DNA of 64,000 bases, taken from assembly GCA_905221615.1 (NCBI GenBank), contig CAJNDT010004691.1:358501-422500 (forward strand), in the 5' to 3' direction. This DNA comes from Symbiodinium sp. CCMP2592 (lineage: Eukaryota; Sar; Dinophyceae; Suessiales; Symbiodiniaceae). A program made the translations under genes and the position numbers. The notes beneath the pieces are model-generated. The model was not told where the DNA came from and ran no database searches. It was given only the letters and a program-made list of their open reading frames with translations. Each line of letters starts with the position of its first letter. The first letter of the stretch is position 1. Of the stretch, positions 286 to 61,902 are shown one piece after another.

Positions 286-300
286 GCTTGGGCCCCAAAG

Positions 301-595: not shown

Positions 596-645
596 AAATA
601 TACATATATATATATGCATGCATATAATATGCATATGGAATCATA
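596..645. repeat. AT-rich microsatellite
   Basis: (TA)n with embedded ATGCATGC steps. The 68-codon open frame across it (480-686) is not believed to be coding. Confidence 0.7.
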
Positions 646-807
646 TATCAGAACCTCTCCTTGTTTCTGGTGCTGCTTTGAGATGATTCTTAGATGGAGC
701 AAGTTTGGGGTCGACATACGGGGCTCTATGTGGCTGTCATGACTTTTAGAAGGGTTTGAGCGGTGTATGGGCTTTATAGGGTGTATGTACAGGGCTCACT
801 AATTTTG

Positions 808-928
808 ACAGAGTTCTGCGGTGTGGCAGAAAGCTGCGAAGCTAGACTAGCGCGGGCTGCTGCTACCGTTTATTTACAGCTCTACATGTCGTACGTGGTC
901 AAGATACTTAGTAAGTACTACACACCAT
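808..928 (+). CDS. open segment, possible exon
   Basis: Open for about 40 codons (contains ARLARAAATVYLQLYMSYVV) to a TAA. There is no clear acceptor and no recognised family. It could be chance. Confidence 0.2.
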
Positions 929-1541: not shown

Positions 1542-1599
1542 AAGGGTTTAGGGGTTTAGGGTTTAGGGGTTTAGGGTTTAGTGGTTCAGGGTTTAGGGA
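1542..1599. repeat. TTTAGGG tract
   Basis: Near-perfect alternation of ggtttaggg and ggggtttaggg units, followed directly by an exon candidate with a cag acceptor. Confidence 0.8.
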
Positions 1600-1610
1600 A
1601 GACTGCCCAG

Positions 1611-1669
1611 GTGCTCCATGTACGTGTCTGCAGCTCTGTCCTGGATCATTTTCGGACCGCCCGTCCTGG
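1611..1669 (+). CDS. exon candidate, hydrophobic segment
   Basis: After the acceptor gcccag the frame reads MYVSAALSWIIFGPPVLV, a plausible membrane segment. An M-Q element follows directly. With the hydrophobic piece near 2214-2287 it suggests a membrane protein gene in the first 4 kb. The family is not recognised. Confidence 0.4.
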
Positions 1670-1670
1670 T

Positions 1671-1780
1671 TGACTTAGATCCCCAATACCCAACCTTTAA
1701 ACTTTCTGGGTTCTTAAAGTTTAGTAGGAATCGGAAAGTCTAACCTTCCATTTCTGCGGCTTATTGGGGTTGTAAGTTGA
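1671..1780. mobile_element. M-Q element
   Basis: Short TIR element. acttagatccccaata at the left pairs with tattggggttgtaagt at the right. A second copy of the whole 100-bp sequence lies at 23874-23972, which shows it is a dispersed repeat. Confidence 0.75.
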
Positions 1781-1799
1781 TCTGGCTTCACTTTTGGCA

Positions 1800-1889
1800 G
1801 ACCTCGGGATCGAAAAAGCTACTGCTTTCGGGGGTTAGACCCTGCAATAGGGTAATATCCTACTATTTTGTAGGGTTTGCGGATACAGG
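1800..1889. mobile_element. M-L element
   Basis: Diverged copy of the M-L family. The interior tcctactattttgtagggtt and the end ggatacaggg match the copies at 27923, 33883 and 51781. The left TIR is reduced to acctcgggatc. Confidence 0.6.
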
Positions 1890-1912
1890 GATGCAGCATC
1901 GATGGGGTGTGG

Positions 1913-1915
<3 letters not shown>

Positions 1916-1955
<40 letters not shown>
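1916..1955. repeat. (CAG)n microsatellite
   Basis: About 13 CAG units. Read forward they would give poly-Gln and in reverse poly-Leu, but no exon around them is supported. Confidence 0.9.
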
Positions 1956-2015
1956 CGAGCAGTAGGGGAGAGAGTAAGTAAGACAAACACATCATATCTC
2001 GCCTCAAGCTTTCAG

Positions 2016-2103
2016 CATCTAGTGCTGTTGAAGAGAACACTGCTCACGCTGACGGCATGCTGAGCTTTGGTGCCCCAGCACAGTCTACAGGAGTGATGCC
2101 CTC
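2016..2103 (+). CDS. exon candidate, unknown protein
   Basis: Acceptor gctttcag, then an open frame beginning ASSAVEENTAHADGMLSFGA and ending just where an M-F element starts. Composition is protein-like and richer in C/G at third positions than the surroundings. Probably the same gene as the hydrophobic segments at 1611 and 2214. Confidence 0.5.
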
Positions 2104-2212
2104 TTTAAAGTAAAAGCCAGAAAGTTGGAATATGATTATCCTAACCCTTCTATGGTAAATTATAGGGTATCCTACCATGAAACCATATTCCAACTTTCTG
2201 GAGTTCCCTTTA
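2104..2212. mobile_element. M-F element
   Basis: TIR element. The arms ccagaaagttggaatatg and catattccaactttctgg are perfect complements about 60 bp apart. It sits between two exon candidates. Confidence 0.85.
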
Positions 2213-2213
2213 G

Positions 2214-2287
2214 CCCTGCCAGGATACTTACCCACCACGAACTTTGTGATGGGGATGATATTGGTCACCATTGCCATGGTCCCGGGC
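2214..2287 (+). CDS. exon candidate, transmembrane segment
   Basis: One frame reads TNFVMGMILVTIAMVPG, a convincing hydrophobic helix, straight after the M-F element. Another frame and the reverse strand are also open here, so the frame is inferred from hydrophobicity. Family unknown. Confidence 0.4.
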
Positions 2288-2530
2288 TCAGTTTTGCTTT
2301 GGCCCCGTTTAAACCTACTATTTTGTCGAGTTTGGGGAGTTTGGGGCTAAAGGTTAGGATTTCAGGTGTTCCGGTTTAAGGTTTTGGGCTTGAGGAGTTC
2401 ATCGGGAATCGGGCACGTTGCTGCTTCTGCCCCTGTAGTAGCTTTTTTTGCTGATTCAACTGCGCTTATGGAAACCCTAAACCTTAAACCCTAAGGCCCG
2501 TTGACATGCACAGCAAGCTTTAAACCGAAA

Positions 2531-2640
2531 GGGAACTCCAGAAAGTTGGAATATGGTTTCAGGGTAGGATACCTCATAATTTACCATAAAGGATCTAGGA
2601 TAATCATATTCCAACTTTCTGGCTTTTACTTGAAACCCTA
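2531..2640. mobile_element. M-F element, second copy
   Basis: Same family as 2104-2212, opposite orientation: starts aactccagaaagttggaa and ends ttccaactttctggctttta. Confidence 0.85.
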
Positions 2641-2977
2641 AGGCCGACCTTCACTGCTAGGCGGAAAAAGGTGCTCAAAATCAAAGCCTACCTTAAGGAC
2701 GAAATGAACCCTAAAAGGGTTTAAGGTTCATATACCATATAGGGATTCATAGTATATGGGTACATGGCCCCCTACTTTTAAGGGTCATTTGGTCTTTCAG
2801 GTAAGGCCCATTCACAGGCACAGCGCAAGGAGCCAGGAGACGAACCTTTGGAGCATTGGGAGTGTCTGTTTGGCACTTTTGGCCCTCCTCTGGCTGGTGC
2901 TTCGTAGGGAGTGGGGGAATGGATCCCGATAGTAGCCCCTATACCCAATAATAGTCTCTATAATCCACTCCCCGCAG

Positions 2978-3048
2978 TTCCCTACAAAGAACCAGACAGT
3001 GGAGGCAGGCTTCATGGAATCCTCGGCTATGCATGTGAACGACATGTG
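2978..3048 (+). CDS. exon, unknown protein
   Basis: Acceptor ccccgcag, phase 0. The frame begins FPTKNQTVEAGFMESSAMHV and continues to a GT at the start of a TTTAGGG tract, a plausible donor. Strongly protein-like, but the family is not recognised. Confidence 0.6.
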
Positions 3049-3116
3049 GTTTAGGGTTTAGGGTTTGGGTTTAGGGTTCAGGGTGTATCGGGGCACCCTG
3101 TCCATGGAATGCTCAG

Positions 3117-3190
3117 AGCCGCAGCTTTGAACGACCTTCGATCCCAAGCTGCGTATCTGACAGAGGCAGCGACCTGGCCGTCAAGCTTAC
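3117..3190 (+). CDS. exon candidate, unknown protein
   Basis: After cag the frame reads AALNDLRSQAAYLTEAATWP, helical in composition, and closes at an M-H element. It may continue into the open region from 3269. Confidence 0.5.
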
Positions 3191-3268
3191 TATAGGAGCG
3201 TCTAAACAATAACTATTGAGTATAGTATAGTGGGCAACCAAACCCTATTCTATGTTTTTAAAGGACCC
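3187..3268. mobile_element. M-H element, degenerate
   Basis: Keeps the M-H landmarks actatagg, agtatagtgggc and aaccctattcta. The right arm has decayed. Confidence 0.55.
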
Positions 3269-3587
3269 TACAGGTCACTGGTGGTCGCCGTTACGTGGAT
3301 GTTTACATTGCGTCCCGTTGAATATTCTACGACAGCCCTCTGCGAGTATGTCGGCACGCCAGCCTACACCGTATGTCATGAACTCTGCTTTTGCATTCAT
3401 TGTTTTCCAAGCCCTCAAGCCGCGATTGGATACTGTGTGGAAGGAGGTGTCTGTTTCGACTTTATTACTACTGGAACGCGCAAGGAATGCAGTTGAGTGC
3501 ATAGGGCATAGGGCATACTTCACCAAGTCTGGCATCGGTTCCTTGAGGGGGTCGAGGGTAAAGCCAGCACCCCCTGTCCCCAGGTAG
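3269..3587 (+). CDS. open region, possible exon
   Basis: Two + strand frames stay open for 85-110 codons. One contains YVMNSAFAFIVFQALKPRLD, which looks like a membrane helix followed by a charged stretch. The correct frame cannot be decided by eye. Confidence 0.35.
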
Positions 3588-3598
3588 CCCTAAAGCCA

Positions 3599-3790
3599 TA
3601 CTGCTGTTGATATAAATCCTGCATTACCAGGACCCTAAACTGTCGGAATTCTGGTAAATTCCTTACATTATAATGGGTAATGCAGGATTTATATCCCTAA
3701 ACCCTAAAAAACCCTATAGATCCCTCAAAGGAATCCCTTAAAGGTATCCTTATAGCTCCCTTTATAGGAACCCCAGGATTTATATCATCA
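3599..3790. mobile_element. M-A element with doubled right arm
   Basis: Left arm tataaatcctgcattacc. The right arm is interrupted: aggatttatatc occurs at 3684-3695 and again at 3775-3786, with 79 bp of telomere-like and ccctttataggaacc sequence between them. The element then ends normally with atcatcagccgtag. Confidence 0.75.
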
Positions 3791-3828
3791 GCCGTAGCTG
3801 TTGTTTTAGGGCCAGCGCCCTTTTTCCG

Positions 3829-3881
3829 AAAAGGTCATCTACAACTTGGAGCAGCTGCTCCCGAAGGGCAAGAAGCAGTGA
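3829..3881 (+). CDS. terminal exon candidate
   Basis: Frame VIYNLEQLLPKGKKQ followed by TGA, shortly after the M-A element. The basic C-terminus is protein-like. It may close the gene whose exons lie at 1611-3587, but the join is not shown. Confidence 0.45.
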
Positions 3882-4076
3882 ATCTTTGGGCTTAAGGGTT
3901 TACGGTTTGAAGGGGTACAAGGTTAAGGGCTAAAGCCCTAAGCCCTAAACCCCTATGGTACCCTTGTAGAACTCTTGTAGGAACCCTTAAAAGGAACCCT
4001 ATTTGGGTACATGCCTGCTTCGGGTAGAATCCTCGGAGCCAGACACCCCTAAATCGCACACTGCAGTCCTTAACGA

Positions 4077-4187
4077 CCCTAAGGCTCCATGTAACCTTGT
4101 AGTATATACTTAGGCCTTAAAGTATCTATATAGGGACGCCTTGAAGGCTTAAGTATCTACTATAAAGGTACATGAAGCCTTTGGGCT
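4077..4187. mobile_element. M-E element
   Basis: Arms cctaaggctccatgtaacc and ggtacatgaagcctttggg, with two internal near-palindromic tatacttaggcc / ggcttaagta motifs typical of the family. Confidence 0.85.
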
Positions 4188-4208
4188 TCAGGATCCCTCC
4201 AGAAACAG

Positions 4209-4227
4209 TGGTGGGGGGGGGGGGGGG
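4209..4227. repeat. poly-G tract
   Basis: Run of G interrupted by a single t; likely a slippage tract. Confidence 0.8.
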
Positions 4228-4296
4228 TTCTGATGATGGGCTCAAAGGAAGTCCGTCACTTTAGGGTCCTGAGGTCTGATCCATGCCTGAAACATA

Positions 4297-4409
4297 GGGA
4301 GGTTTCCGAAACTAGGGGACCCTTATGTAGTACCCTGAATAGTAGGATGCTTTTTTGGGGGGACGGGGACCCCAGAATAAGCTACCCGTAATTTTCGGAA
4401 GCTCCTACA
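4297..4409. mobile_element. M-C element
   Basis: TIR gaggtttccgaaactagggg paired with ccgtaattttcggaagctcc. The interior has the family motif agtaggat. Confidence 0.8.
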
Positions 4410-4637
4410 CAGGGTTCAGGGTTTAATCAAGGTGCAGGGCCCATCTGTTGAAGCAACATGTCTGCATCTTCCTTGCATCTGCTAGGCTGAAGTCTTTGAT
4501 TGTTGTTTTTGTGCGCGGTGTTTGGTGTGGTGTTCGACGTACTGTGCTTCACAACTTAGGCTGTAAGGTAGTGCGCTTAGGGTTTAGGACTCGTCCGCTA
4601 CTAACTACCGGGAGGGTTTTGATAGGGTTTTGGGCAG

Positions 4638-4782
4638 TGTGAGAAGCTGGTATGCATTCAGGGAGCGCTCTGATTACAAGACCTTATTAGTGCTGTGGAG
4701 GACTATGCCCAATTCAACGAAATCAGGCTTCGTGAGGCACGTGCTAGACTTGCAAACCTTGGTCATGTTCGATGAGATCTGA
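4638..4782 (+). CDS. terminal exon, unknown protein
   Basis: Acceptor gggcag, then an open frame of 48 codons to TGA containing FRERSDYKTLLVLWRTMPN and ending LVMFDEI. Hydrophobic and charged residues alternate as in a folded domain. Family not recognised. Confidence 0.55.
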
Positions 4783-4919
4783 AACCCTAGGCCATCCTAC
4801 CCCCGAAACACCTACCTTTTTTGGGGTTCCTCAATATATGACTTATATAAAAAGTTGGGATATTCAGGGTTAAGTTGAAGCTGTGCATCCTGAAACCCTC
4901 GAGTTTCGAAGGTCCTCAG

Positions 4920-4987
4920 GATTTCCATCCATCGGTTCAACCTGCGGCCAGGGCTTCAGCAGAATCTGATGGGAAAAGAGCGTGTTG
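4920..4987 (+). CDS. exon with GTATGT donor
   Basis: Flanked by a cctcag acceptor and a gtatgt donor. The frame reads ISIHRFNLRPGLQQNLMGK. A longer alternative frame runs through the donor, but both splice sites favour this reading. Product unknown. Confidence 0.55.
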
Positions 4988-5125
4988 GTATGTATGTGGG
5001 CCGGAGTTGGTGAGTAGGGTTCATATGTTGCAACTTTTATCATTCCTAGTAAGCCTTACTAAGCCTCTTGACCCTCAAAGAAATCCCGAAGCTTTGAGCT
5101 ACAATTCCCGGCATGAGAGTTTCAG

Positions 5126-5210
5126 TGTGTTGCGGCCGCGTCCTCGAGTTGATGCTTGAAGTTCCCCAGTTGTTCCAGGTCTTTTGTGCAAAGGCAGTTC
5201 AAGCTCAGAT
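5126..5210 (+). CDS. exon with GTAAGT donor
   Basis: Acceptor gagtttcag and donor gtaagtg. The frame contains CCGRVLELMLEVPQLFQVFC. One of the best-bounded exons in the left part of the window. Family not recognised. Confidence 0.6.
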
Positions 5211-5225
5211 GTAAGTGTAAGGTTT

Positions 5226-5330
5226 ACTATAGGGCCCTTAACAATTACCTATACGAATTTGGGTGTTCCTGATTAGTATAGTATAATGGCCCCCAGACCC
5301 TATGCTAATTATTAAGGATCCTACATTAGG
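5226..5330. mobile_element. M-H element
   Basis: actatagggcccttaacaat at the left, and ctatgctaattattaagg with ctacat at the right. Begins 15 bp inside the intron that starts at the 5211 donor. Confidence 0.8.
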
Positions 5331-5407
5331 CTCTTACATGCTTGGCTTATGCATTTAGGGATCAGGGTGCAACGTTCACGTCGGAGGTTCCGGACCCTGA
5401 CTGACAG

Positions 5408-5448
5408 CACCAACACCTCATCAAGGAGAAGTCTTGCTTGGAGGGTAG
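5408..5448 (+). CDS. short exon candidate
   Basis: After ctgacag the frame reads HQHLIKEKSCLEG. Boundaries are uncertain and the family is unknown. Confidence 0.35.
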
Positions 5449-5630
5449 CAGCTGCATAGTAGCGTTTTAAGTAAAGAACCTAGATCCCTACCTACGAGCC
5501 ATGCCCGGGCTTGCTTAGAATCTGCTCTATGGAACATGAGGTACCCACCAAAAAGGGGGGCAGAGTATGATGAATCTGTTCTGTACTCCAGAAGAGGAGG
5601 TACCAACAAAAATATGGGCAGGGGATGACC

Positions 5631-5752
5631 CTACTTGGATGGGCAGTGGACCTAGTAAGTAGGTTATAAGTAGAGTTACAAGTACCCTAAATGGAGTTAC
5701 CCCAACTATGACCCTACTTCCTACTTACTAAGTCCCCTGCCCCTCCAAGTAG
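5631..5752. mobile_element. M-B element with 3' cassette
   Basis: TIR ctacttggatgggcagtgga against cccctgcccctccaagtag; inner arms agtaagtaggttataagt and ctacttactaag. From 5753 to 5828 it is followed by the cassette accctaaacccc...gatccctttaaggaaccc described in the findings. Confidence 0.85.
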
Positions 5753-5891
5753 ACCCTAAAACCCTAAACCCCACAGATCCCTTTAAGGAACCCTATAGAT
5801 CCCTTTAAGGGGCCCTTTAAGAGCCCCTACGTTTTTTCATACTTCTGTTGGGCCTTTCTGGCTGCAGCTTCTCCTTTGCAGCTTCTGGTTT

Positions 5892-6012
5892 CCCCAAGGC
5901 TCCGGGTACCCATGCAGTATATACTTAGGCCACTCTTAGGCCCACAAGTGCCTTTATATAAGAACCCCTTTAAGGCCTAAGTATGTACTACATGGGTATA
6001 TGGAGCCTTAGG
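5892..6012. mobile_element. M-E element between coding segments
   Basis: Arms cccaaggctccgggtaccc and gggtatatggagccttagg. An exon-like segment after two cag sites precedes it, and a strong terminal exon starts 7 bp after it. Confidence 0.85.
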
Positions 6013-49107: not shown

Positions 49108-49159
49108 GTTCGATCCTATGATCTCCGCTTCGACCAGCTGCTAGAGGCTCCGGCACATA
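49108..49159 (+). CDS. exon with GTAAAC donor
   Basis: Acceptor gactggcag, phase 0, frame VRSYDLRFDQLLEAPAH, donor gtaaac. Confidence 0.6.
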
Positions 49160-49860: not shown

Positions 49861-49982
49861 GCGCTCGTAGCGGTGGGAACCGCTGCTGCTCATGTGGAGG
49901 CCAGCCCACCGAAGCTCCGATGTTCGGCAGTTTCGGGGTTCAGGTCCATAAGATTACAGCGCTGTTCGCAAATATGTTGTAG
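49861..49982 (+). CDS. terminal exon, Cys-rich
   Basis: Acceptor gacaccag. The better frame reads GARSGGNRCCSCGGQPTEAP then MFGSFGVQVHKITALFANML and TAG. A second frame (ALVAVGTAAAHVEASPPKL) stays open longer. Coding likely; frame uncertain. Confidence 0.5.
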
Positions 49983-50450: not shown

Positions 50451-50683
50451 ATATTTTTGAGCACTAAACGCCAAACTACCAACAAATCCTACCCACTCCG
50501 GCCCCAAGACCGTAGAATACAACAGCCCCGAAACTTCCCCAAACCGAAGGCGCTAACATCTCAGCCCTATAAGCCTGGATTTAGGGTTTGGGGTCTCTAA
50601 AGCACGATGTATGAACCCTAAACCCTCAAACCCTGAACCCTACAAACCCAATGCCCCTGACGGAATGAGAGGCAGCATCTCAG

Positions 50684-50769
50684 CCATGCGTTACAGACCG
50701 CCTCATCGTGCGCGAGCATTGGCGGCGGAAGTATCAGGACTTCCAATTGTCCGGTTTCCCCTTGGAGAG
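50684..50769 (+). CDS. exon with GT donor
   Basis: Acceptor agcatctcag, phase 0, frame PCVTDRLIVREHWRRKYQDF then QLSGFPLE, donor gag|gttta. About 80 percent G/C third positions. Confidence 0.6.
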
Positions 50770-51076: not shown

Positions 51077-51151
51077 CTGCAACGCCTCAAGTGCAGCTTT
51101 CGCTGGACCTTCCCTGCCGAGCCTGCGCGCGCAGAGGGCTTGGTGCAATGA
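51077..51151 (+). CDS. terminal exon, unknown protein
   Basis: Acceptor gcgacgcag, phase 0, frame LQRLKCSFRWTFPAEPARAE then GLVQ and TGA. Likely the end of the gene containing 50684-50769. A reverse 88-codon frame is its shadow. Confidence 0.6.
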   Translation: MQRLKCSFRWTFPAEPARAEGLVQ

Positions 51152-51194
51152 GCTCTGTCGGTCTGGCTGTGCCCTTCGGCCTTAAACTGCTATA

Positions 51195-51277
51195 GGTCTT
51201 TATACTTAATTTTGGGTCCTTATTATAAGGATCCTGCTATTTAGGGTCCTTTATCAGGGTCCCCCGGAAACTACCAT
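51195..51277. mobile_element. M-C element, partial
   Basis: Interior cttaattttgggtccttatt and gggtcccccggaaactacca. Left TIR lost. Confidence 0.65.
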
Positions 51278-51419
51278 GTAGTTGTCGTGTGGGCTTGAAG
51301 GTTTTTCATGAGCGTTTTGAAAGGGGTTCCTTTCGCGGGGTTGGGGAGGTATAACCAGGACTTGACTTTCTGAGACTCGCATGTGGGTTGGTCTGTGCGG
51401 TTTGCGGTTTCGGGTTCAG

Positions 51420-51477
51420 GGGTCCTGGCAACAAAGATGCTGCTCGGGAATAGTGTGTCAGAGACTGGCATGAAACC
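51420..51477 (+). CDS. possible upstream exon of ABM gene 1
   Basis: Acceptor cgggttcag, frame VLATKMLLGNSVSETGM. It lies just upstream of ABM gene 1 and could encode its N-terminal leader, but nothing shows the join. Confidence 0.35.
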
Positions 51478-51780
51478 TAAAAAATCCCAAGCCCTAAACC
51501 CTAAACCCTTCAACCCCCAAACACTTAAACCCCTAAACTCTACAGAAAGCAACATAATAACATAATACGGGCCCGTGTTTTTGCATATTGCCAGAAAGTA
51601 CACATACTGACGATGCCCTAGCGGTGTGTTGGCTGTTAACAAAGACTTCGTATATGTGCCTTGAATGTCAATGTCCAGATTTAGCGAAGCACTCAAACAC
51701 CTAAAGGTCTCCGAAGACCGAAAGCCCTGTTAAAAAAAAACCACCAAACCCCTAAACCCTAGACTCCTAAGCCCGAAGCC

Positions 51781-51876
51781 TTACCTGGGGATCCAAAAAC
51801 CCACTGTTTTAGAGGTGAGACCCTGCAATTAGAGGGTCATAACCTGCTGTTTTGTAGGGTTTGGGGATACAGGTAA
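51781..51876. mobile_element. M-L element
   Basis: ttacctggggatccaaaaac / gtttggggatacaggta. Confidence 0.9.
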
Positions 51877-52094
51877 TCCCTAAATGCCGGAGGCCCCAAA
51901 GCTTGACGTCATCTCCGCTAGGGTTTAGGGCTTGGGGCTTAGGGCCTAGTTTAGGGTTTTAGGTTTTAGGGTCTATTATAGGCGTTTAGGGTTTTAGGCT
52001 TTGGGCTCTATTATGGGGTTTTGGGGTTTAGGGTTTAGAGTCTATTATAGGGTTTAGAAAGCCTGAGCCTTACAATCCCACATCCGCAGCCCAG

Positions 52095-52139
52095 GCTCGT
52101 GACGGTGGAGATCAAGCCAGATCGGATCGATGAGTTCCT
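52095..52139 (+). CDS. ABM gene 1, exon 1
   Basis: Encodes LVTVEIKPDRIDEFL, the first strand and helix of an antibiotic-biosynthesis-monooxygenase (ABM) domain, a small ferredoxin-like fold that forms dimers and in several members oxidises quinols or phenols. Acceptor gcccag; donor ct|gctaca (GC type), which restores the Leu codon with the g of the next exon. Enzyme substrate not predictable. Confidence 0.75.
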
Positions 52140-52160
52140 GCTACATGCCTCTTACTGTGT

Positions 52161-52248
52161 ACCTTAACCCTGAAGAACCTGCCTTCTGAAGGACTTATAT
52201 AATGAAACCATAATACGGAACCCTACAAAGGTAGGTGATTAAGGGTTA
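52161..52248. mobile_element. M-J element in ABM gene 1 intron 1
   Basis: accttaaccctgaagaacct / ggtaggtgattaagggtta. Begins 21 bp after the GC donor. Confidence 0.75.
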
Positions 52249-52512
52249 AGGTATAGGCCTTAGGAGGTTTAGGAATCTAGGCTCAGAGTTGAAGCCTCGT
52301 TGCGTTTTCGAGGACTTGGGGTTTGGGGTTGTAGGGTTAAGGGTTAAGGCAGTTTAGGCCTCTGACTGTTAAGGGTGTAGGACCTTAAACTTACTAAACC
52401 CCATACCCAATACCCTATAAACCCTATACCCTATAAAGCCCTACACACTAACCCTTAAACCCTAAACCCTACACTGCCCTGAACCCCAAACCTATAAACC
52501 CTCTGTGCACCC

Positions 52513-52637
52513 CTACTTAAAGGCCCAGGAAACTTAGTAAGTAGGTTATACGTAGAGTTAGATGTCCCCTAAATGGAGTTACCCCAGTTATAGCCCTACT
52601 TACAACCGACTTACTAAGTGCCCAGGGCCTCCAAGTA
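52513..52637. mobile_element. M-B element in ABM gene 1 intron 1
   Basis: ctacttaaaggcccaggaaa / gtgcccagggcctccaagta. Confidence 0.85.
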
Positions 52638-52719
52638 CTAACTCGTTAACCATAAACACTAAACCCAATGCCCTAAACCCTAAACCCCAAAACTATAAAC
52701 CCTCTGTGCAACCCTATAT

Positions 52720-52826
52720 GGGGGGGGTTTCCGAAAATTAGGGGTACCGTATTTTCGGGTACTTAAAGTAAGGATCCTACTATTTAGGGTGCTATATTAG
52801 GGTCCCCTGTTTTCGGAAACTCCCAT
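52720..52826. mobile_element. M-C element plus cassette in ABM gene 1 intron 1
   Basis: gggggtttccgaaaattagg / ctgttttcggaaactccca. Followed to 52925 by the ccctttaaggaaccc cassette and a stray M-B right end (ttactaagtcccctgaccct). Confidence 0.85.
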
Positions 52827-53076
52827 AGACCCCAAAACCCTAAACCCCAGAGATCCCTTTAAGGAACCCTATAGATCCCTTTAAGGAGCCCTTTAAGAGC
52901 CCTTACTAAGTCCCCTGACCCTCCAAGCACAACCCTGTGGCATCCTTAGGAAAGCTAAGCCCTACACACTAACCCTTAAACCCTATACCCTAAACCCTAA
53001 ACCCAAGGCCCTGACCCCTAAACCCCAAACTCGTAAGCCCTCTGTGCACCCCTATATTCTCCCCTTTGCATCTTAG

Positions 53077-53130
53077 GAAAGTGATGGAGGGAGATGCGAA
53101 GGGCTCGCGAGATAAAGCTCTGGAGCCTGG
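53077..53130 (+). CDS. ABM gene 1, exon 2
   Basis: KVMEGDAKGSRDKALEPG, matching the conserved ABM segment that ends E-P-G. Acceptor gcatcttag. The end is ambiguous by one or two bases (cctgggcaat against cccagggtgc), so the donor could be GC or GG. Confidence 0.75.
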
Positions 53131-53413
53131 GCAATCGGAAAGCAGGGTCTAAGGTCAGAAGTATGGGCCCCTAATATGGACCCTTAGGTCTTTTTGAGGG
53201 AGTTCTAGGGACCCTGAAGTGTCTATGTAGGGTATATAGTAGGTATTTAGGGATCCCAAGGTTAAGGGCCCATCCAAGGGGCCCATGGTTTCAACCCTTG
53301 AGAGTAGAGCTTGTAGGGTTCAGGACTTAAGGCTTAGAGTTGAGGGTTCAGGATTTAAGGCTTAGTGGTTCAGGGTTTAAGGCTTAGAGTTTCTTCAGGG
53401 ATGGGTAGGCCTT

Positions 53414-53600
53414 GTGGTGGTGAGTGTTCGCTTCAAGACCTGCTTTTCGAAGCCCAGCCCCGTATCCAACATTTACACTGCAAAGACTTCCATTCATTCA
53501 AGCTCCCATCTGTTTGGGACGCGCCACCAACAAGCCGAAGTGCTTGATCCTGAGACCGAAAAACCTTCGCAGCTTCTGGAGAGGCTTACACAGACCCTAA
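53414..53600 (+). CDS. open region inside ABM gene 1 intron 2
   Basis: Two overlapping + frames look protein-like: LQDLLFEAQPRIQHLHCKDF to a stop at 53547, and RHQQAEVLDPETEKPSQLLE further on. Could be a nested gene, captured sequence or chance. Confidence 0.3.
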
Positions 53601-54027
53601 CTCCTAAACCCCAAATGCTGAACCCTGAACCCCTAAACCCTAAATCCTAGACCGTACATCCTAATCCCCAAATGCTGAACCCTAAACCCTTAAACCCTAA
53701 ATCCTAAAGCCTAAATCCTAAATCCCAAATGCGGAACTCTAAACCCACTAGCCGTGCTGACAAGACTTCCAGGATCCTTGGCCAAGCAGCGTTTACGAAA
53801 CAGGGGGCCGCTTTAGGGTAACCCTAAACCCTGGCTTGATCTCCGCCGTCACTAGCCTGGGCTTCGGTTGTGGGATTTTAGGCTTCAGGCTCTCTAAACC
53901 CTAACCCCTACAATAGACCCTTATAAACCTTAAATCCCTAAACCCTACAATCGACCTTAAACCCCGAAACCCTAAAAGCCCTGGCCGAGATGGCGTCAAG
54001 CTTTGGGGCTTCGGGTGTTGAGGGATT

Positions 54028-54124
54028 GCTTGTGTCCCCAACCCCTACAACATAGTAGCTTATGACCCTCGAAGTACAGGGTCTAGCCCCCTAAAACAGT
54101 ATATAGGTTTTCGGGTCCCCAGGT
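54028..54124. mobile_element. M-L element, reverse, in intron 2
   Basis: ttgtgtccccaacccctaca / ggttttcgggtccccaggt. Confidence 0.8.
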
Positions 54125-54749
54125 GGTCATGAGATAGACATGTAAGACCGAACCACCTCCAAAGTCCAAAACCCTGAACCCTAAACCCTGAAGCAAGCGA
54201 GCCCTGACATGTGATGCCTTAGGCCGGTTTATGCCTGTGTAGATACAGTGCATGCGGCTCTTATAGCACTGTTTTGAAACACCCATGAAAGCATGTGAAA
54301 TCCTAACAGAACCTCTAGAGAGTAGCTGACAGACATCAAATCATCCGGCCAAGCCGGAACCCTAGACTCTGAACAAAAATCAAATAGGCGCGAACACCCA
54401 CAAGCGGAACCCTAACCTCTACACCCGCTTGCTTTAGCGTTCTCAGGTAGATCACAGTAAAGCTCCTTGCCAGGGATTCTTGAACATACTATTTGGATAC
54501 TACTGTCCGCACTCAGTAACAGTTGAATAATACCATAGAATATGGATACATAGCGCCCTTAATGGTAGACCTCTTATAGACTGTTCCAGTATGGGGGGCA
54601 ATACCCGACCTTGGTTTTACAGTATTACGGTTCTCGCGGCTCTAGCGCCTAACGCATAGATTTTGAAGTTCTGGCGGATGCAAAAGGCCACTGCACTTGA
54701 AATCATGAACCTTAGCCGCCCTCATAGACTTCGTGCTCTAAACATTAAA

Positions 54750-55195
54750 CCCTTTTCAAAACGCCAGAAACCCCCTCTCAAAACACCCTAAGCCCTTTTC
54801 AAAGCACCTTAAACCCTTGTCAGAACCCCAAACCCCTTCTCAAAACACCCTAAACCTTTTCAGAACACCCTAAACCCGTTTCAACACACCCTGTACCTTT
54901 CAAAAAACCCTAGACCCTTTTCAAAACACCTTAAGCCCTTTTCAAACTACCCTAAGCCCTTTTCAAAGTTGAACCCTTTTCAGAACACATCAAACCCCTT
55001 ACACCCTATACCCTTTTCAAAACACGTTAAACCCTTTTCAACACACCCTACACCCTGATTCAACACACCCTATACCCTCATCAAAACACCCTAAACCCTT
55101 TTCAAAAAACCTTTAACCCTTTTCAGCACACCCTATATCCTGTTCAACACACCTTAAACCCTTTTCAAAGCACCCTAAATCCTTTTGAAAACACA
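54750..55195. repeat. 21-bp minisatellite built on CCCTAAA
   Basis: About 20 copies of a unit like ccctaaacccttttcaaaaca. Period about 21 bp with drift. It lies just upstream of ABM exon 3. Confidence 0.9.
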
Positions 55196-55247
55196 TTCTT
55201 AGACGCTTTTTAAGAAGCCGAAGCCGAGTCGTGACCTGAGGACCCAG

Positions 55248-55309
55248 GGTGCCTGCGCTTCGACCTCCTCCGAGATCGAGACAATCCCAACAAGTTCGTG
55301 TTTTACGAG
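55248..55309 (+). CDS. ABM gene 1, exon 3
   Basis: CLRFDLLRDRDNPNKFVFYE, the ABM core strand pair with the family-typical FxVLRD...FxxYE pattern. Acceptor gacccag; canonical gag|gttta donor. The last 26 bp recur at 55404-55429. Confidence 0.8.
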
Positions 55310-55403
55310 GTTTAGGGTTCAGGGTTTCAGAGTTTAGGGCTTAGAGGGTTTCGGGTTTAGGGTTTAGGGTGTTAGGGTTTTATAGGGTTTGGGGCTGAGG
55401 GCT

Positions 55404-55429
55404 CCCAACAAGTTCGTGTTCTACGAGGT
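55404..55429 (+). repeat. duplicate of ABM exon 3 end
   Basis: cccaacaagttcgtgttcta followed by cgaggt matches 55286-55311 with one change, 118 bp downstream, with TTTAGGG units between. It gives a second possible donor. Confidence 0.8.
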
Positions 55430-55597
55430 CGCTTTTCTGGAGATTTCTGTGAGGTTTCGCGTTTTGGCTTTAGGGTTCAGGCTTTCGGCTCTTGTTAGGA
55501 ACCTAAACCCTAAACCCTAAACTTTGACCGTTCGGCTTTATGTAGGGGTCGGGGCTCGAGACAGAACTGAAGGATGTTTTGAAAGTCATGGGGACTA

Positions 55598-55754
55598 TAC
55601 TTAGAGGCCCAGGGGACGTGGCGATTAGGCTATACGTAGAGTTATCACAGTTATTATAACACTTAGGTACTTATAATATAAGTACCTAAGTGGAGCTTCC
55701 CCAATTATAACCCTACGTATAACCGACTTACTAAGTCCCCTGGGCCTCCAAGTA
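55598..55754. mobile_element. M-B element in ABM gene 1 intron 3
   Basis: tacttagaggcccaggggac / cccctgggcctccaagta. The interior carries an extra small palindrome around cacttaggtacttataata. Confidence 0.85.
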
Positions 55755-56021
55755 GGGCTGTTCCGGGCTCAGGGCTCGGACAGAACGGGATTTGAAGCTT
55801 AGAGGGTTTTAAAGTTAGTATTGGGGTTATCAGGTTTAGGGTTTAGGGGTTTAGGGTTTCGGGAATTTTGGGGTTATCAGGGGCATTAAAGGGCTTATGG
55901 GTTGCAGAGGGCTTGACAGCTGGGATTTAGGGTTGAGGCTTTCGGATGGAGAGATGAAGGCTTCAGGGTTCCAGGCTTGAGTCAGGGTTGCAGGTTTCGG
56001 GCCGGAACTTTCCGGGTGAAT

Positions 56022-56126
56022 TGGGGGTTTCCGAAAAAAAGGGGACCCTAATGTAGTACCCAAAATACTAGGCTCCTTATTATAAGGACCCCAAAATAAG
56101 GTACACCTAATTTTCGGGAACTCCCA
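56022..56126. mobile_element. M-C element, reverse, in intron 3
   Basis: tgggggtttccgaaaaaaag / ctaattttcgggaactccca. Confidence 0.85.
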
Positions 56127-56342
56127 AAGTCTTAGGTCTGTACAGCTACTTTTAGGGTCTTTAGGGTCAGGGTTGGGGTTGGGGTGCAGGGGCTTCATAG
56201 ATGAAGCCTTGATTTGACAGCAAGGTTCATTGCGGCTAGCCAAGTTTGGGCGAGGAGCCTCAGAATGCAGAGGCATTTCAGCCTATATGTAAACGCAAAA
56301 GCCCATTATCAAACCCTAGGCCCCAAACGGAACTACATCGGA

Positions 56343-56344
<2 letters not shown>

Positions 56345-56402
<58 letters not shown>

Positions 56403-56705
56403 GTATATATATACACACACACACACATACATGTATATGTCTTTGTACATGTTCATGCACATGGACATTTGCACATGGACATTTACATGTACATGCAGAA
56501 GTAGTAGATGTATAGGTGCGTGCATCGGTGTATTTATATGCATATCCATATTCATATGTGTATGCAATGCGTATATGTATATACATGTATATGTATAGGC
56601 ACATCTGTAAATGGATATGCGCATGCATGCATGCCTGCATACATGCATACATACATACATATGTACATACAGACAGACATACATACATACATGCATATAC
56701 ATACA
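56345..56705. repeat. complex microsatellite
   Basis: (CT)n to 56392, then TA, CA and acatgcatac units. The long frames on both strands rich in Tyr, His, Cys and Met are compositional. Confidence 0.9.
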
Positions 56706-56740
56706 CATGGGTGTTCGGTTCAGAGTTCCCTTGTCTTCAG

Positions 56741-56848
56741 GCCTATGTAGACGATGGGGCGATTTCGACGCACAAGACCACGGCGCACTACAAAGCCTGG
56801 GCCGACTTCAAAGCCACTGGCGCAGTGGAGTCTCAGACGGTAGTGAAG
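56741..56848 (+). CDS. ABM gene 1, exon 4
   Basis: AYVDDGAISTHKTTAHYKAW then ADFKATGAVESQTVVK, the C-terminal half of the ABM domain including the HxxTxHYxxW region. Canonical ttgtcttcag acceptor; donor aag|gcacga (GC). Confidence 0.85.
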
Positions 56849-57127
56849 GCACGATAGACTTTATGGCCAAGTTTTTAGGGTTTGGGGTCTAAGGCGTACG
56901 ACTAGGCCTTATGCTAGGATTCAGAGGGTTAGAGCTAGATTACATTGAGGCTTTTGGATGTAGGGTTTGGGGTATTGCATTGGGTTCAGGGTGTCGGCTG
57001 TAGGGTTTGATGGCAGCAGTGACAGCACCTTGGTCCTGGCGTTCAGGTTACGGGGACACCGAAGGCTTAGTACATAGGGGCCTGACCAAACAGAAACATA
57101 CGGAATGTTGTGTTGAGGGGGGGGATT

Positions 57128-57170
57128 CTAAATATGAAGCCCGAAACGGAACTACTATGGGGCCTATGCT
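57128..57170. mobile_element. M-G right half
   Basis: aatatgaagcccgaaacgga then actactatggggcc, without a left arm. Confidence 0.6.
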
Positions 57171-57534
57171 AAACCCTAAACCCTAAATTTTGAGCCCCTA
57201 TAATCCCTAATCGCACCCCTAAACCCTAAACCCCATTCCCTAAACTACGGGGCCTATGGGTACGTAGTAAATACTCTCGAGACTCTCATTGCAGCTTCTG
57301 ACGACCCGCGAGGCCCTGAAGCGTAAACCTAAGCTTGAATCTACACCCTAAACCATCAGCAATAGGGTTCCCTTTAAAGGGATCCTTAAAGGGATCTAAA
57401 GAAGGGTTCTACAATATAGGGGCCTAAACAACTGCCAACACAAGTATTTTATCCCTGTAATAAACCCTTCGCCCGAAACCTTAAACCCATGGTAAGTCGT
57501 AAATCCAACAAAACCCCAGACCCCAAATCCAAAA

Positions 57535-57725
57535 TGGGAGTTTCCCAAAATTAGGGGTACCTTATTTTGGGGTCCTTATAATAATGATCCTTCTATTTAG
57601 GGTACTATACTAGGGTCCCCGATTTTCGGAAACTAGATCCGGAAACCCTAAACCCCAGAGATCCCTTTAAGGAACCCTATAGATCCCTTTAAGGAGCCCT
57701 TTAAGAGCCCTTACTAAGTCCCCTA
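57535..57725. mobile_element. M-C element plus cassette in ABM gene 1 intron 4
   Basis: tgggagtttcccaaaattag ... cgattttcggaaacta, then the same cassette and stray M-B end as after 52826. Confidence 0.85.
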
Positions 57726-57750
57726 ATCCCAAATCCCAAGCCTCGGAAAG

Positions 57751-57840
57751 GCGGAGACGGCATCGCTTCCGGCATGGGCTTTCCAGACGCTTCCCACAGG
57801 CTCGTGGCATTCGGGCGTGAGGAATAGGGACCCAGGGCTA
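57751..57840 (+). CDS. ABM gene 1, exon 5 (C-terminal)
   Basis: AETASLPAWAFQTLPTGSWH follows acceptor ctcggaaag. Gene 2 has the matching C-terminal motif ETASIPGEWALQ. The frame stays open to 57888, so the end is uncertain. Confidence 0.65.
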
Positions 57841-58117
57841 AGGGTTCCTATGAAGGGCACCTTTAGGGGCTCCTTAAAGGGCTCCTTTTAAGGGCTGATT
57901 TTTAAGGGCTCCTTTTAAGGGTTTTGTGTTCAGGGCTGATGGTTTAAGGTTTAGGGCTCGGGGTTTAGACTTTAGGGTTTTAGTTTTTAGGGCTTCGGGG
58001 CTTTAGGGCTTTAGGTTTAGGGTTTACTATTGTAGGATTCCTTGAGAGTTTTCTGTAGGATGAAATTCTTTAGGGTGAAATCAAGAGGTTTGGGCTTATG
58101 TGATGTTGCAATGTATC

Positions 58118-58320
58118 TATCCCGAAGGGCCCATGTACCCAAGCAGTATATACTCTAGGGAGCACTTTCCTAGAGGCTCCAAATATAGTACCATTATGGA
58201 ATTAAGTCCCCAAAGCCATGCTATGGATGGTCTTTTGGGACCTAATTCCATAATGGTACTATATATGGAGCCTCTGGGTTTAAGGCCAAAGTATATGCTA
58301 TTTGGGTACGTTGAACTTTA
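58118..58320. mobile_element. M-E element carrying M-N
   Basis: cgaagggcccatgtacccaa and gggtacgttgaacttt enclose M-N (58170-58278: ctagaggctccaaatatagt / actatatatggagcctctggg). Confidence 0.8.
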
Positions 58321-58374
58321 TAGAGTATGTAATGTAGAAACGTACGTATGCCCCGCAGAGCCGACACTCTCCAG

Positions 58375-58457
58375 GAACTAAGACCTCCGCTGCCGTGCTG
58401 GTCACCGTGGACATCAAAGCGGAGAAGATCGATGACTTCCTGAAAGTCATGGAAGGG
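58375..58457 (+). CDS. ABM gene 2, exon 1
   Basis: TKTSAAVLVTVDIKAEKIDD then FLKVMEG, paralogous to gene 1 exon 1 and the start of exon 2 with no intron between FL and KVME. Acceptor actctccag. Donor ggg|gactga (GA type) fits the next exon in frame. Confidence 0.75.
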
Positions 58458-58528
58458 GACTGATGGAATGGTTTAGTTAAAGGTGAAAGTCATGGAAGGG
58501 GACTGATGGAATGGTTTAGTTGAAGGTG
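58442..58528 (+). repeat. 43-bp tandem duplication across the exon 1 donor
   Basis: gaaagtcatggaaggggact and the next 23 bp occur twice in a row, with one difference. This duplicates the end of exon 1 and its donor. Confidence 0.85.
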
Positions 58529-58986
58529 TTCTTGCAGGGTCTTCAGGACTTTTGGAGGGATGTGGGAGGCAGGCAGGTCTTGGAGGCTTTTGAAGGACCG
58601 AGTGTAGAGCGACGGCTCCAGTGTCTTGCGCTGCATGTAATCTGTTTTGGGGAGACCATGTCACGCAGGGGTTCTCATGAGAAGAACCTTAGGATTCCAG
58701 CCTTCGTTTTTGAAACCTTCTAGATTCTAGAACCCGTCAGGCAGTCCTTATTTCCATTGGAGCCGTAAACTAGCGGAGCCCTGAATTGAAGAATTCTTAA
58801 ACGACCGGAAAAGCCTGCACGGATGTGGTGAATACCAGAGATTCCTCTACAGCGAAAACTCTGATCTCGAGAGTACCTGTTGCCCAGCACTCTTCGACGC
58901 AGCTTTAGGGTTTAGGGTTTCAGGCCTTCCCGACACCGTATAATATAGCTTAAACCTCAACGGCAAGCGATTTTGTTTGCTGAGAG

Positions 58987-59058
58987 GACGCCGTAAATGC
59001 CAGAGATAAAGCCCAAGAGCCAAATTGCCTTCGCTTCGACCTCCTGAAGGACAAGGAG
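58987..59058 (+). CDS. ABM gene 2, exon 2
   Basis: DAVNARDKAQEPNCLRFDLL then KDKE. The usual E-P-G-C is E-P-N-C here. Acceptor gctgagag; donor gag|gccaca (GC). Confidence 0.8.
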
Positions 59059-59222
59059 GCCACAGCTCGAAGCTATGTATAATTTAAAAATTAAAATGCC
59101 TTAAAGCTATAGGGTCATACCCTACCTTTTCCATACACAAGATTCTAACCATCCAACTAGGCCAAGAATGGGGTGAGGTATGATCCTCTAGATAGTTAGA
59201 GTTTAGAGTCCTGGGTTCACTA

Positions 59223-59310
59223 TAGAGGCCACAACAATAACCTATGCTATCTTAGGGGCTTTTTATTGCAATTCCAGCACAATATACCCCAGCACCCTAG
59301 TCCAATGGCC
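59223..59310. mobile_element. M-H element in ABM gene 2 intron 2
   Basis: tatagaggccacaacaataa ... ccagcaccctagtccaatgg, diverged. Confidence 0.6.
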
Positions 59311-59710
59311 CCTCTGGGTCTGGTGGTTTGGAGTTCCCGTCTTCCTTCCATGTTTGCTTAGCTTTAGGGTTTTGGCTTTAGAACTTTACGGCCCCACTGC
59401 GTCAGGACTCTATGACTTGATGTTTGGGATGTTAGGGATTCTGGGCACCGTTTCCGGTTTGATTTAGGGTATCAGGTCTGGGGTGTAGTAGTATTTGTGG
59501 GTTCGCGGGATTTAACTTTGTGAGGCTTCGGGTGTAATTTATAGGGCTTATAGGGTTTATAAGGCTTATAGGGTTTAGGGTTTTTGGTTTCGGGCCTAGG
59601 ATTTAGGGTTTGGGGTGAAAGGGTGCTTATGTCTTGCAGGTTGAACCTAAGGTCAGGGTTTTGGGTCTTTCAGCTTAGTCTTGACATTAGGTATGGCCAT
59701 ACACTCCCAG

Positions 59711-59772
59711 GTGGCCAACCGATACCACTTCTATGAAGTCTACCTGGACGATGCCGCCGTTGATCACCACAG
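59711..59772 (+). CDS. ABM gene 2, exon 3
   Basis: VANRYHFYEVYLDDAAVDHH. Aligns with NPNKFVFYEAYVDDGAISTH of gene 1 without gaps. Acceptor cactcccag; donor cag|gattca (GA). Confidence 0.85.
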
Positions 59773-60154
59773 GATTCATGGCCAGCATGGTGTTCGTCGC
59801 CTAGCTCACCGTAAGCCCAAAAACGACGACCATAAAATTGTTTTAGACCCCAGGTATACGCTGAGTGGCTTCTGATACCTATGGGCAGTTGGACCCTTAT
59901 AAAGTAGAAGCCTAAGAGTTGGAGCATCAATGTCCTCATACCCTTAAGGTAAGCTACAGCTAGAGGGGATCCCAGCGCTTATCATCCAAAGTCAATGTTG
60001 CAACCTTCTGATACTCGATAGAAAGCCTAATAATATAGGTGCCTAAATAACTTAAGCCTTTGCCTAAGTAACTTAAGCCTTTAAATTATATCCTCGACCC
60101 TAAACCCTCCAACCCCTAGATCCCCTTCAATTTAAAGGAACCCCCACCCCGTTA

Positions 60155-60180
60155 AGTCGAGGACCACAGCTCACCATAAG
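60155..60180 (+). repeat. extra copy of ABM exon 4 start
   Basis: agtcgaggaccacagctcac then cataag matches 60439-60464 except for two bases. It is 284 bp upstream of the complete exon. The region between is ccctttaaaggaacc minisatellite. Confidence 0.85.
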
Positions 60181-60435
60181 GATACATACCCCTCAAAGGA
60201 AACCTTTAAAGGGAACCCTTTAAAGGAACCTCCTTAACGCACCCCCTTAAAGGAACCCTTTAAAGGAACCCTGTAAACGAACCCTTTGAAGGAACCCCCT
60301 TAAAGGAACCCCTTAAAAAGGACCCCTTAAACGGAACCCCTTTAAAGGAACCTTTAAAAAGGAACCCCTTAAAATGATCCCCTTTAAAGGACCCCCCCCC
60401 CCCCCGCCCCCCACCCTCCCTCCCCACCCGCTTCC
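60181..60435. repeat. CCTTTAAAGGAACC minisatellite and poly-C tract
   Basis: Repeated ccctttaaaggaacc-type units, then from 60389 a C-rich run that also gives the acceptor at 60446 a strong polypyrimidine tract. Confidence 0.85.
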
Positions 60436-60445
60436 TTCAGTCGAG

Positions 60446-60482
60446 GACCACAGCTCACTACAAGGGCTGGGCCGAGTTTAAG
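60446..60482 (+). CDS. ABM gene 2, exon 4
   Basis: With the ag of exon 3 it reads RTTAHYKGWAEFK, matching KTTAHYKAWADFK of gene 1. Acceptor cagtcgag; donor aag|gctccc (GC). Confidence 0.8.
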
Positions 60483-60499
60483 GCTCCCCGAAGTCCTCG

Positions 60500-60890
60500 G
60501 GGCTTTGGGGCTCCCTTTTAAGGGTTCCTTGAAAGTAAAGGATCCCTTTAAGGGTGCCTTTAAAGTGAAGGCTCCCTTTAAGGGTTCCTTGGAAGTAAAA
60601 GATCGGTTTAGGGTTCCTTTAAACTTAAAGTAAAGGACCTTCTAAAATTTTAGGGTCCCGGTAAAATCAAGGATCCTTTTAAGAGTTCCGCTAAAGTAAT
60701 AAAGGGTCTGTTTAGGAAAGATTTTTAGGGTGCTTTGAGGGTTGTTCAAGGGAGCCTCTAGGCTCCCCTTTTTAAGGCTCGTTTAAGGTCTCCTTCAAAG
60801 GTTCCTTTAAGGGCTCCTTTGAAAGGTTTAGGGGCTTAAGGGGTTCCTTTCAGGGCTCCTTTCAAGTAAAGGCTCCTTCTTTCGTTATTC
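60500..60890. repeat. GGTTCCTTTAAAGG minisatellite, opposite orientation
   Basis: Units such as cccttttaagggttccttgaaagtaaagga, reverse-complementary in style to 60181-60435, so the short exon 4 lies between opposed repeats. Confidence 0.75.
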
Positions 60891-61848
60891 TTTCTAGGTG
60901 GCAAGTTGGGAAACGTTTTAATTTGGTTCCTATAGAGGTACCTATTCATAAATACATTTCCGAGCCCCAAACTACAACCCAGTTTTAGGATTCAGGACGG
61001 TTTTCGGCATGCTAGGGTTTCCAGGGTTTGGGTTCTTCAAAGGGCTCCTTGATGGCGACTGGGGTTAGACAACCGCCCATATGAAACTTATACAAACAGA
61101 CCTCCCCGTAAGACAGTGCACAACCTTGCAGCGGCCTCGACACCTTAAGCCCAAGTCTAAGCATCCTTCTATAAGCCCTGCACCCTAAACCCTCAAACCC
61201 TAAACCCAACTTAAGCCCTGCACCCTAAACCCTCAAACCCTGAACCCTATAGACCTAGTTCAGCCCGAGAATAAACCTCTTGGAGGCTGCAGGTGGCGTC
61301 GAAAAGCAATCGGCATCCCGGCCAGTTAACATGTTTTTGTGCTTAATGTCGAGGTTTTTGAACATGTAGTAACACTGTCTGGTACTACGGCTTGCTTGTT
61401 CCACTGCTGTCCGTGAGTAGTATGGCAGTATGAATATCAGGTCTAAAATCCGCAGTGCCGCAGACACAGACACACCTGGTGGGAAGTTTGGACTGCATTT
61501 CGGGGATTCTGTGGTTTCGGGAGACCTGCAGAATAGGCAGCCATTCAAAAATCGTCCGCCTGTTGCACAGCCCTACGGGACGCTCCTTCCACAACCTGTA
61601 GGATTTCGGGGTATAGCATGGTCCATCACATGAATACCGATTGGAAGGAGATACAGTTCTTGACAGTTAAAGCCTGAAAGGAAGCAAAAGCCCTACGTCA
61701 AGAACCCTGCTCCCGAACACCTTGAACCCCCAAACTCCGAAAGCCGAAAACTCAAAGCCCCAAACGGGCTTAATTAGCCCCCAAACCCTAAACCCTAATC
61801 CCTAAACCCCTAAACCCTAATCCCTAAACCCTAATCCCTGAAACCAAG

Positions 61849-61902
61849 GTTATGAAGCTGGAGACGGCGTCGATTCCAGGTGAGTGGGCGCTGCAGCTCT
61901 GA
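61849..61902 (+). CDS. ABM gene 2, last exon
   Basis: VMKLETASIPGEWALQL and TGA after acceptor gaaaccaag. Matches VVK|AETASLPAWAFQ of gene 1. The exon for the AT(S)GAVxSQT part between 60482 and 61849 was not found. A gtgagt inside the exon is a possible competing donor. Confidence 0.7.
   Translation, partial: VMKLETASIPGEWALQL

Follow-up and report, generated by a model that had tools for sequence, protein, structure and literature searches.

A two-domain ABM gene of Symbiodinium sp. CCMP2592 whose halves have no intron place in common

In a stretch of 64,000 nucleotides (nt) of Symbiodinium sp. CCMP2592 (contig CAJNDT010004691.1, positions 358,501 to 422,500), which was analysed as a whole and is called the window below, lies a run of exons coding for antibiotic biosynthesis monooxygenase (ABM) domains. 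An initial annotation, made from the letters alone, described them as two tandem paralogues that share protein sequence and no intron position. The locus therefore raises two questions, namely whether there are indeed two genes, and how two such similar sequences came to be interrupted at different places. As set out below, the locus probably represents one nuclear gene, coding for a 224-residue protein with two fused ABM (LsrG-like) domains, in which each half gained its introns independently after the fusion.

The ABM-domain exons occupy positions 51148-61902 of the window and, when spliced from its sequence, form one gene in which 11 introns of 529-2118 nt separate 12 coding exons. The spliced frame is a single open frame of 224 codons (675 coding nt including the stop) that is kept at every joint; it contains no stop at the end of domain 1 and reads on into domain 2. 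The spliced protein is identical at 221 of 224 residues to gene model s309_g9.t1 of a near relative (P0127), and at 195 of 216 residues to the Symbiodinium natans protein named "LsrG" (P0001), in both cases with no gaps. The latter comparison covers both halves and the linker, and both proteins read through the two domains, linker included. Since no stop follows domain 1 and two-domain models match without gaps, the locus holds one gene and not two. Each half also scores above the curated Pfam cut-off for PF03992 (58.7 and 45.8 bits versus 23.1, obtained with draft models of the halves). The features of the gene are as follows.

51148..51170, + strand: coding exon 1, start MSSVGLAV (ATG..GCTGT), exit phase 2, GC donor; from P0127 (MSSVGLAVLVTVEIK) and the spliced translation
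52095..52139, + strand: coding exon 2, domain 1 (LVTVEIKPDRIDEFL); from tblastn and the splice model
53077..53122, + strand: coding exon 3, domain 1 (KVMEGDAKGSRDKAL); GA donor, the EPG letters after it being intronic
55241..55309, + strand: coding exon 4, domain 1 (DPGCLRFDLLRDRDNPNKFVFYE); the sole GT donor of the gene
56741..56848, + strand: coding exon 5, domain 1 (AYVDD..TVVK); GC donor
57751..57799, + strand: coding exon 6, from the end of domain 1 into the linker (AETASLPAWAFQTLPT); lacks a stop, GC donor, phase 1, with the linker of P0001 and P0127
57800..58374, + strand: linker intron between the two domains; P0127 and P0001 match across it with no gaps
58375..58457, + strand: coding exon 7, from the linker into the start of domain 2 (GTKTSAAVLVTVDIK..KVMEG); GA donor
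58987..59058, + strand: coding exon 8, domain 2 (DAVNARDKAQEPNCLRFDLLKDKE); from tblastn and the splice model
59711..59772, + strand: coding exon 9, domain 2 (VANRYHFYEVYLDDAAVDHH and the AG of R); GA donor, phase 2
60446..60482, + strand: coding exon 10, domain 2 (TTAHYKGWAEFK); from the splice model
61286..61312, + strand: coding exon 11, a 27-nt micro-exon (AAGGVEKQS); the better-scoring junction, same residues in P0127, QA for QS in P0001
61849..61902, + strand: coding exon 12 (VMKLETASIPGEWALQL, stop TGA); from tblastn and the splice model

The exons were built by hand from the sequence and from tblastn matches of draft peptides, assuming GC, GA or GT donors and AG/G acceptors (the slash marks the joint). 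For exon 11, a 20-nt version combined with a GA donor at 60489 lost to the 27-nt exon with a GC donor when both were scored against S. natans (1030 versus 1043). Compared with this model, the initial annotation placed eight of nine cuts correctly (DEFL, FYE, VVK, KVMEG, KDKE, inside the R after DHH, EFK and before VMK), with the refinement that the cut at DEFL falls inside the L codon (CT/G). The cut after EPG has to be withdrawn, as the exon ends with GCTCTG (L) in front of a GA donor, EPG is intronic, and the next exon begins with GACCCAGGG (DPG). The annotation had bounded the locus at 52095-61902, where ABM exons are indeed found, but it overlooked exon 1 (51148-51170) with the intron behind it (51171-52094), the linker intron, and the micro-exon at 61286-61312. 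It was because of this 27-nt exon, the GA donors and the linker intron that one gene looked like two to an unaided reader, and the tandem paralogues gave way to a single fused 12-exon gene. The ABM gene thereby shows how tool-free reading of a genome errs.

The start was placed at 51148 because P0127 reaches MSSVGLAV, like the N-termini of relatives such as P0002. A start at the S. natans N-terminus, which would add exons 49861-49899 and 50672-50721 and 30 residues before the domain, was rejected: P0001 matches these exons, but in P0127 the 50672 exon is translated in a different frame. The first S. natans residues (MLHFKVYLQT) were looked for in the window and not found. P0001 and P0127 are orthologous two-domain ABM proteins and, unlike our model, have upstream exons added at their annotated N-termini. 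These exons (49109-49146, 49861-49899 and 50672-50721), which the two models attach to the ABM gene in different ways, may belong to an upstream gene or to a longer isoform. A protein search of the species' own assembly (1.098 Gb, 5383 contigs, E up to 10) returned 10 matches, all at the ABM locus; this search runs exon by exon and the matches (10) are fewer than the exons (12), so that paralogues with short exons may escape it and a single copy is unproven.

The two domains can be aligned over 97 codons without gaps, and are identical at 61 of 97 residues and at 65.6 percent of nucleotides. In domain codons, the introns of domain 1 (n=4) lie at 14.67, 30, 53 and 89, and those of domain 2 (n=5) at 20, 44, 64.67, 77 and 86, with further introns beyond the aligned region at -0.33 and -7.67. 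None of the nine intradomain places is shared, the closest pair (domain 1 at 89.0, domain 2 at 86.0) being 9 nt apart, so what the initial annotation had seen by eye holds with corrected boundaries in a gap-free alignment. If places had been chosen independently, the chance of finding none in common would be 0.93 under uniform placement and 0.73 with GG sites only. Zero sharing is the expectation of independent insertion, and an unaltered inherited set of introns is excluded. Any intron that was present at the duplication must have been lost from at least one half, since no place is shared. Gain after the duplication would then be the most economical account, with nine gains versus at least nine earlier gains and nine losses, and it is this parsimony count on which the choice between gain and loss is made. 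The earlier proposal that most introns were gained after, or independently of, the duplication is in this respect supported, but its framing in terms of separate genes is not.

The age of the duplication was addressed with trees of ABM domains. One tree, of 82 rows, united the domain-1 copies of Durusdinium, S. natans, P0002 and the window in a clade of their own (98/89), with a second clade for the domain-2 copies (99/96). A larger tree, which comprised 131 of 171 domain rows and set aside the rows of P0081, P0099 and P0038 and single-domain rows beyond 25, likewise contained Symbiodiniaceae domain-1 and domain-2 clades (SH-aLRT 89 and 91), and Effrenium joined the domain-1 clade. Going by these separate clades, the duplication predates the split of Symbiodinium and Durusdinium.

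Several points weigh against this account. The exon map is derived from genomic DNA and from matching to two protein models, and should be regarded as predicted; these two models, moreover, differ from each other at their 5' ends. Outside the Symbiodiniaceae the domain-1 and domain-2 rows intermix, with 23 and 22 label changes in the larger tree and 10 and 10 in the 82-row tree. With 97 columns, the domain trees are too short to resolve the deeper history, and they carried long-branch warnings. It is also possible that gene conversion between the halves has blurred the date of the duplication. Finally, gain is preferred by parsimony only, so that an intron-rich ancestral gene followed by loss may still be the alternative, and the pair of places 9 nt apart could be one ancestral intron that slid.

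According to the loss explanation, introns already stood at most or all of the nine places in the single-domain gene and the halves lost complementary sets. Introns are numerous in dinoflagellate genes, and their gain as well as their loss has been reported, at least in the available part of PMC11453091. However, not one of the nine or more introns then present at the duplication would have been kept in both halves, and uninterrupted relatives exist on contigs that are putatively genomic, namely the single-domain P0066 (longest contig 53,119 bases) and P0059 (8,949 bases) and the two-domain P0051 (14,789 bases). We therefore consider differential loss unlikely. In the gene models of Durusdinium (P0021), Effrenium (P0037) and the Skav model P0038, which we take to be Fugacium, there are scars near domain-2 codon 56. 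Reading such annotation artefacts backwards, they give a hint of an intron near this codon in other genera that is absent from the window. Orthologous DNA was sought in the viral_contigs scan and none was found there.

Sliding would turn some of the unshared places into a single ancestral place that has moved, and the pair at 89.0 and 86.0 fits this, as does the domain-1 place at 14.67, where domain 2 has the same TCCT/GAA context, intron-free. The other nearest distances in the ABM gene are 16, 22, 27 and 30 nt, more than is usually accepted for intron sliding, and sliding appears highly improbable. It might also be argued that boundaries were misread, or that the locus is a pseudogene or misassembled, given that its introns are crowded with repeats and copies of exon edges. 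Against this, all 12 exons join in frame, the product is identical at nearly all of its residues to an independent gene model, and every acceptor reads AG/G, which makes an artefact extremely improbable.

The acceptor reads AG/G in all 11 introns, boundaries having been picked with this rule in mind and then fitted to the protein, and the donors are 7 GC, 3 GA and 1 GT. In the S. natans genome the donors are GT in 23.6, GC in 58 and GA in 18.4 percent, and 97.1 percent of acceptors are AGG (PMC10666404, Table 2, as far as the accessible text of that paper goes). The splice sites of the ABM gene are ordinary for the genus. At all 11 intron places the joined exons read N/G, and at nine of them G/G, a joint close to the proto-splice context that is discussed for the introns of Symbiodinium soluble peridinin-chlorophyll protein (sPCP) genes in the portion of PMC4201569 at hand. 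The density, 11 introns in 0.675 kb or about 16 per kb, is high but not strange: S. natans genes average 14.7 introns in 1660 bp of coding sequence, about 9 per kb (PMC10666404, Table 2), and a mean of 14-18 introns per gene is given for the Symbiodiniaceae (PMC11114475, likewise from the text available). A search of the window for relic spliced leaders yielded weak partial matches only, and these were scattered.

Our proposal is that in an ancestral dinoflagellate a gene for an ABM domain would have been duplicated and the copies fused, and that each half would then have taken up introns of its own at N/G sites, mostly G/G. This uptake would have been served by the spliceosome of dinoflagellates, which works with GC, GA and GT donors and requires AG/G. 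The outcome would be two halves that are common in fold and sequence and have no intron place in common. The introns probably entered one at a time.

Dinoflagellate introner elements have reportedly been treated by Roy et al. in 2023. If introners had multiplied here, the introns would be copies of specialised transposable elements that were inserted recently, and the ABM gene does resemble the introner cases in being an instance of intron gain in dinoflagellates, where such elements have been described (PMC11453091, in its available part). Direct repeats of 3-5 nt flank the ends of eight of the 11 introns (1-2 nt in the remaining three), a pattern partly forced by the GN..AG/G rule, and the linker intron holds a repeat with many relatives:

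58165..58280, no strand assigned: palindromic repeat of about 115 nt, nested in the linker intron, with many near-identical genomic copies

By the criterion used for introners, both ends of an intron should have direct repeats of 3-5 nt nearby and inverted repeats of 8-20 nt no farther away than 30 nt (PMC10666404, methods, as far as accessible). None of the 11 ABM introns has an inverted repeat of 8 nt or more within 30 nt of its ends, the longest measuring 6 nt; of random stretches of the window, 2.9 percent have a terminal inverted repeat of 8 nt or more. Four introns were searched singly in the own genome, and among the candidates scored, no whole-length match elsewhere was found for any of them. 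The intron at 58458-58986 had no other genomic match, and the three others matched only via nested repeats. In four of the five DNA searches of the own genome it was the best 40 of 273 to 5946 candidates that were scored. The ABM introns differ from dinoflagellate introners in the inverted-repeat ends, no whole-intron copies were found among the candidates scored for the four introns, and the repeats that occur sit inside introns, none of them spanning one. The palindrome at 58165-58280 is found at 38 other genomic places at least, with 93-98 percent identity (among the best 40 of 5946 candidates); it is read as a later insertion inside the linker intron and, because of these many similar places, as a member of a recently mobile family. 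Taken together, the mechanism of insertion does not look like that of a currently multiplying introner, an explanation we judge very unlikely. The claim of "active" intron insertion was accordingly dropped, in view of the old duplication, the missing terminal inverted repeats and the outcome of the single-intron searches.

A different source of introns could be the gene itself, through tandem duplication of exon-intron junctions or break repair, whereby introns arise or grow longer when exon edges are copied locally. Near-exact copies that span an exon-intron junction were found in the introns of this gene for four of the 12 exons (2, 4, 7 and 10), with E values from 8e-9 to 4e-6:

55403-55429: copy of the exon 4 edge, in the adjoining intron
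58484-58510: copy of the exon 7 edge, in the adjoining intron
60152-60181: copy of the exon 10 edge, in the adjoining intron
53831-53866: copy of the exon 2 edge, inverted, in intron 3

Since four exons have such copies, three of which lie in the intron next to the exon, the introns have clearly been shaped by local copying, be it early or late. As the origin of the introns this mechanism is quite unlikely, however. The copies are not located at both ends of an intron, as the tandem-duplication model demands, the exact repeats at the intron ends (1-5 nt) scarcely exceed the minimum set by GN..AG/G, and the exon-edge copies could equally stem from later rearrangements. A bolder version, which we regard as decidedly doubtful, takes the two halves as an internal clock that records a complete replacement of introns since an ancient duplication, the introns having been made or enlarged by local junction copying and not by introner transposons. 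Also present at the locus is an inverted local duplication (51783-52120 and 53831-54124, 69.7 percent over 343 columns), through which intron 3 contains a copy of the end of intron 1 as well as of part of exon 2.

Independent intron gain after a fusion has a precedent in this genus. Reichman and Vize (2014, PMC4201569, in the part of the article available) describe the long sPCP genes of Symbiodinium as duplicates that have fused, with introns at distinct places for which a gain after the fusion was inferred. There, as in the ABM gene, a short gene has been doubled and fused, the introns are unshared, and the same argument applies; two fused homologous domains without a shared intron place are what we found here too. 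The long sPCP genes have three introns in all, as far as that part of the article goes, with intronless relatives and cDNAs known, whereas the ABM gene has nine intradomain introns and is known from genomic sequence alone. The ABM gene adds a clean new case to this known pattern, with more introns than sPCP. The entry of introns after duplication is a known habit of these algae. Two homologous domains in one gene have the same chromosome, expression and repair history, hence neither expression nor location confounds a comparison of their intron maps, and with nine intradomain introns, none shared, the ABM gene offers a richer case than sPCP for measuring intron turnover in the Symbiodiniaceae.

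The two-domain arrangement is not confined to the window. Two domain matches were present in 57 of 121 proteins (120 listed hits and the window protein), a count that includes P0081 and P0099, which resemble pieces of one domain; 63 proteins had one match, and P0038 was in four pieces. Several two-domain relatives are transcript-derived by name (mmetsp and eukprot sources, and one labelled Scripp...). P0121-P0126 and P0128-P0131, whose similarity places them with dinoflagellates, have the two-ABM unit joined to an additional domain, either aldo-keto reductase (PF00248) or GAPDH. Among bacteria, the forward frames of 80 loci (L001-L080) contained 34 open reading frames (ORFs) with two ABM matches. 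The 82-row tree included 12 of these 34, all Chloroflexota by title, and 14 of 47 single-domain ORFs. Like the ABM gene, the Chloroflexota ORFs code for two ABM domains per protein, but unlike in the ABM gene, their own first and second domains group together (99/94), and in the same tree, with its long-branch warning, the eukaryotic rows stand apart from them (99/96). Judging from this tree, the Chloroflexota fusion is probably independent of the eukaryotic one.

The best-matching solved chains were those of bacterial LsrG (PDB 2gff and 3qmq), found with domain 1 of P0001 at E values of 4e-14 and 8e-13. LsrG belongs to the same ABM family as the window protein, with single-domain chains there and two domains here. 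The name LsrG is an annotation, and a function as phospho-AI-2 isomerase is putative. A ferredoxin-like fold characterises the ABM family, and S. natans P0001 may contain it twice: as modelled by AlphaFold (mean pLDDT 90.2), its strands and helices occur twice in the same order. ABM proteins are dimers, and the fused protein would probably function as such a dimer with its halves covalently tied, a putative role suggested by this dimerism. A literature search on dinoflagellate ABM proteins, by title and start of abstract, found nothing on point.

Telomere-type repeats were considered as a cause of the introns and rejected as not specific, as they numbered 7.8 per kb in the ten introns of a draft model versus 6.7 per kb elsewhere. 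One telomere-type stretch, which also matches other places, extends to within 3 nt of the 3' end of the last intron. Over the 64-kb window, TTTAGGG or CCCTAAA occurs 441 times versus 8.2 expected. Of note, intron 4 contains a long CT/TA/CA microsatellite tract at 56343-56707.

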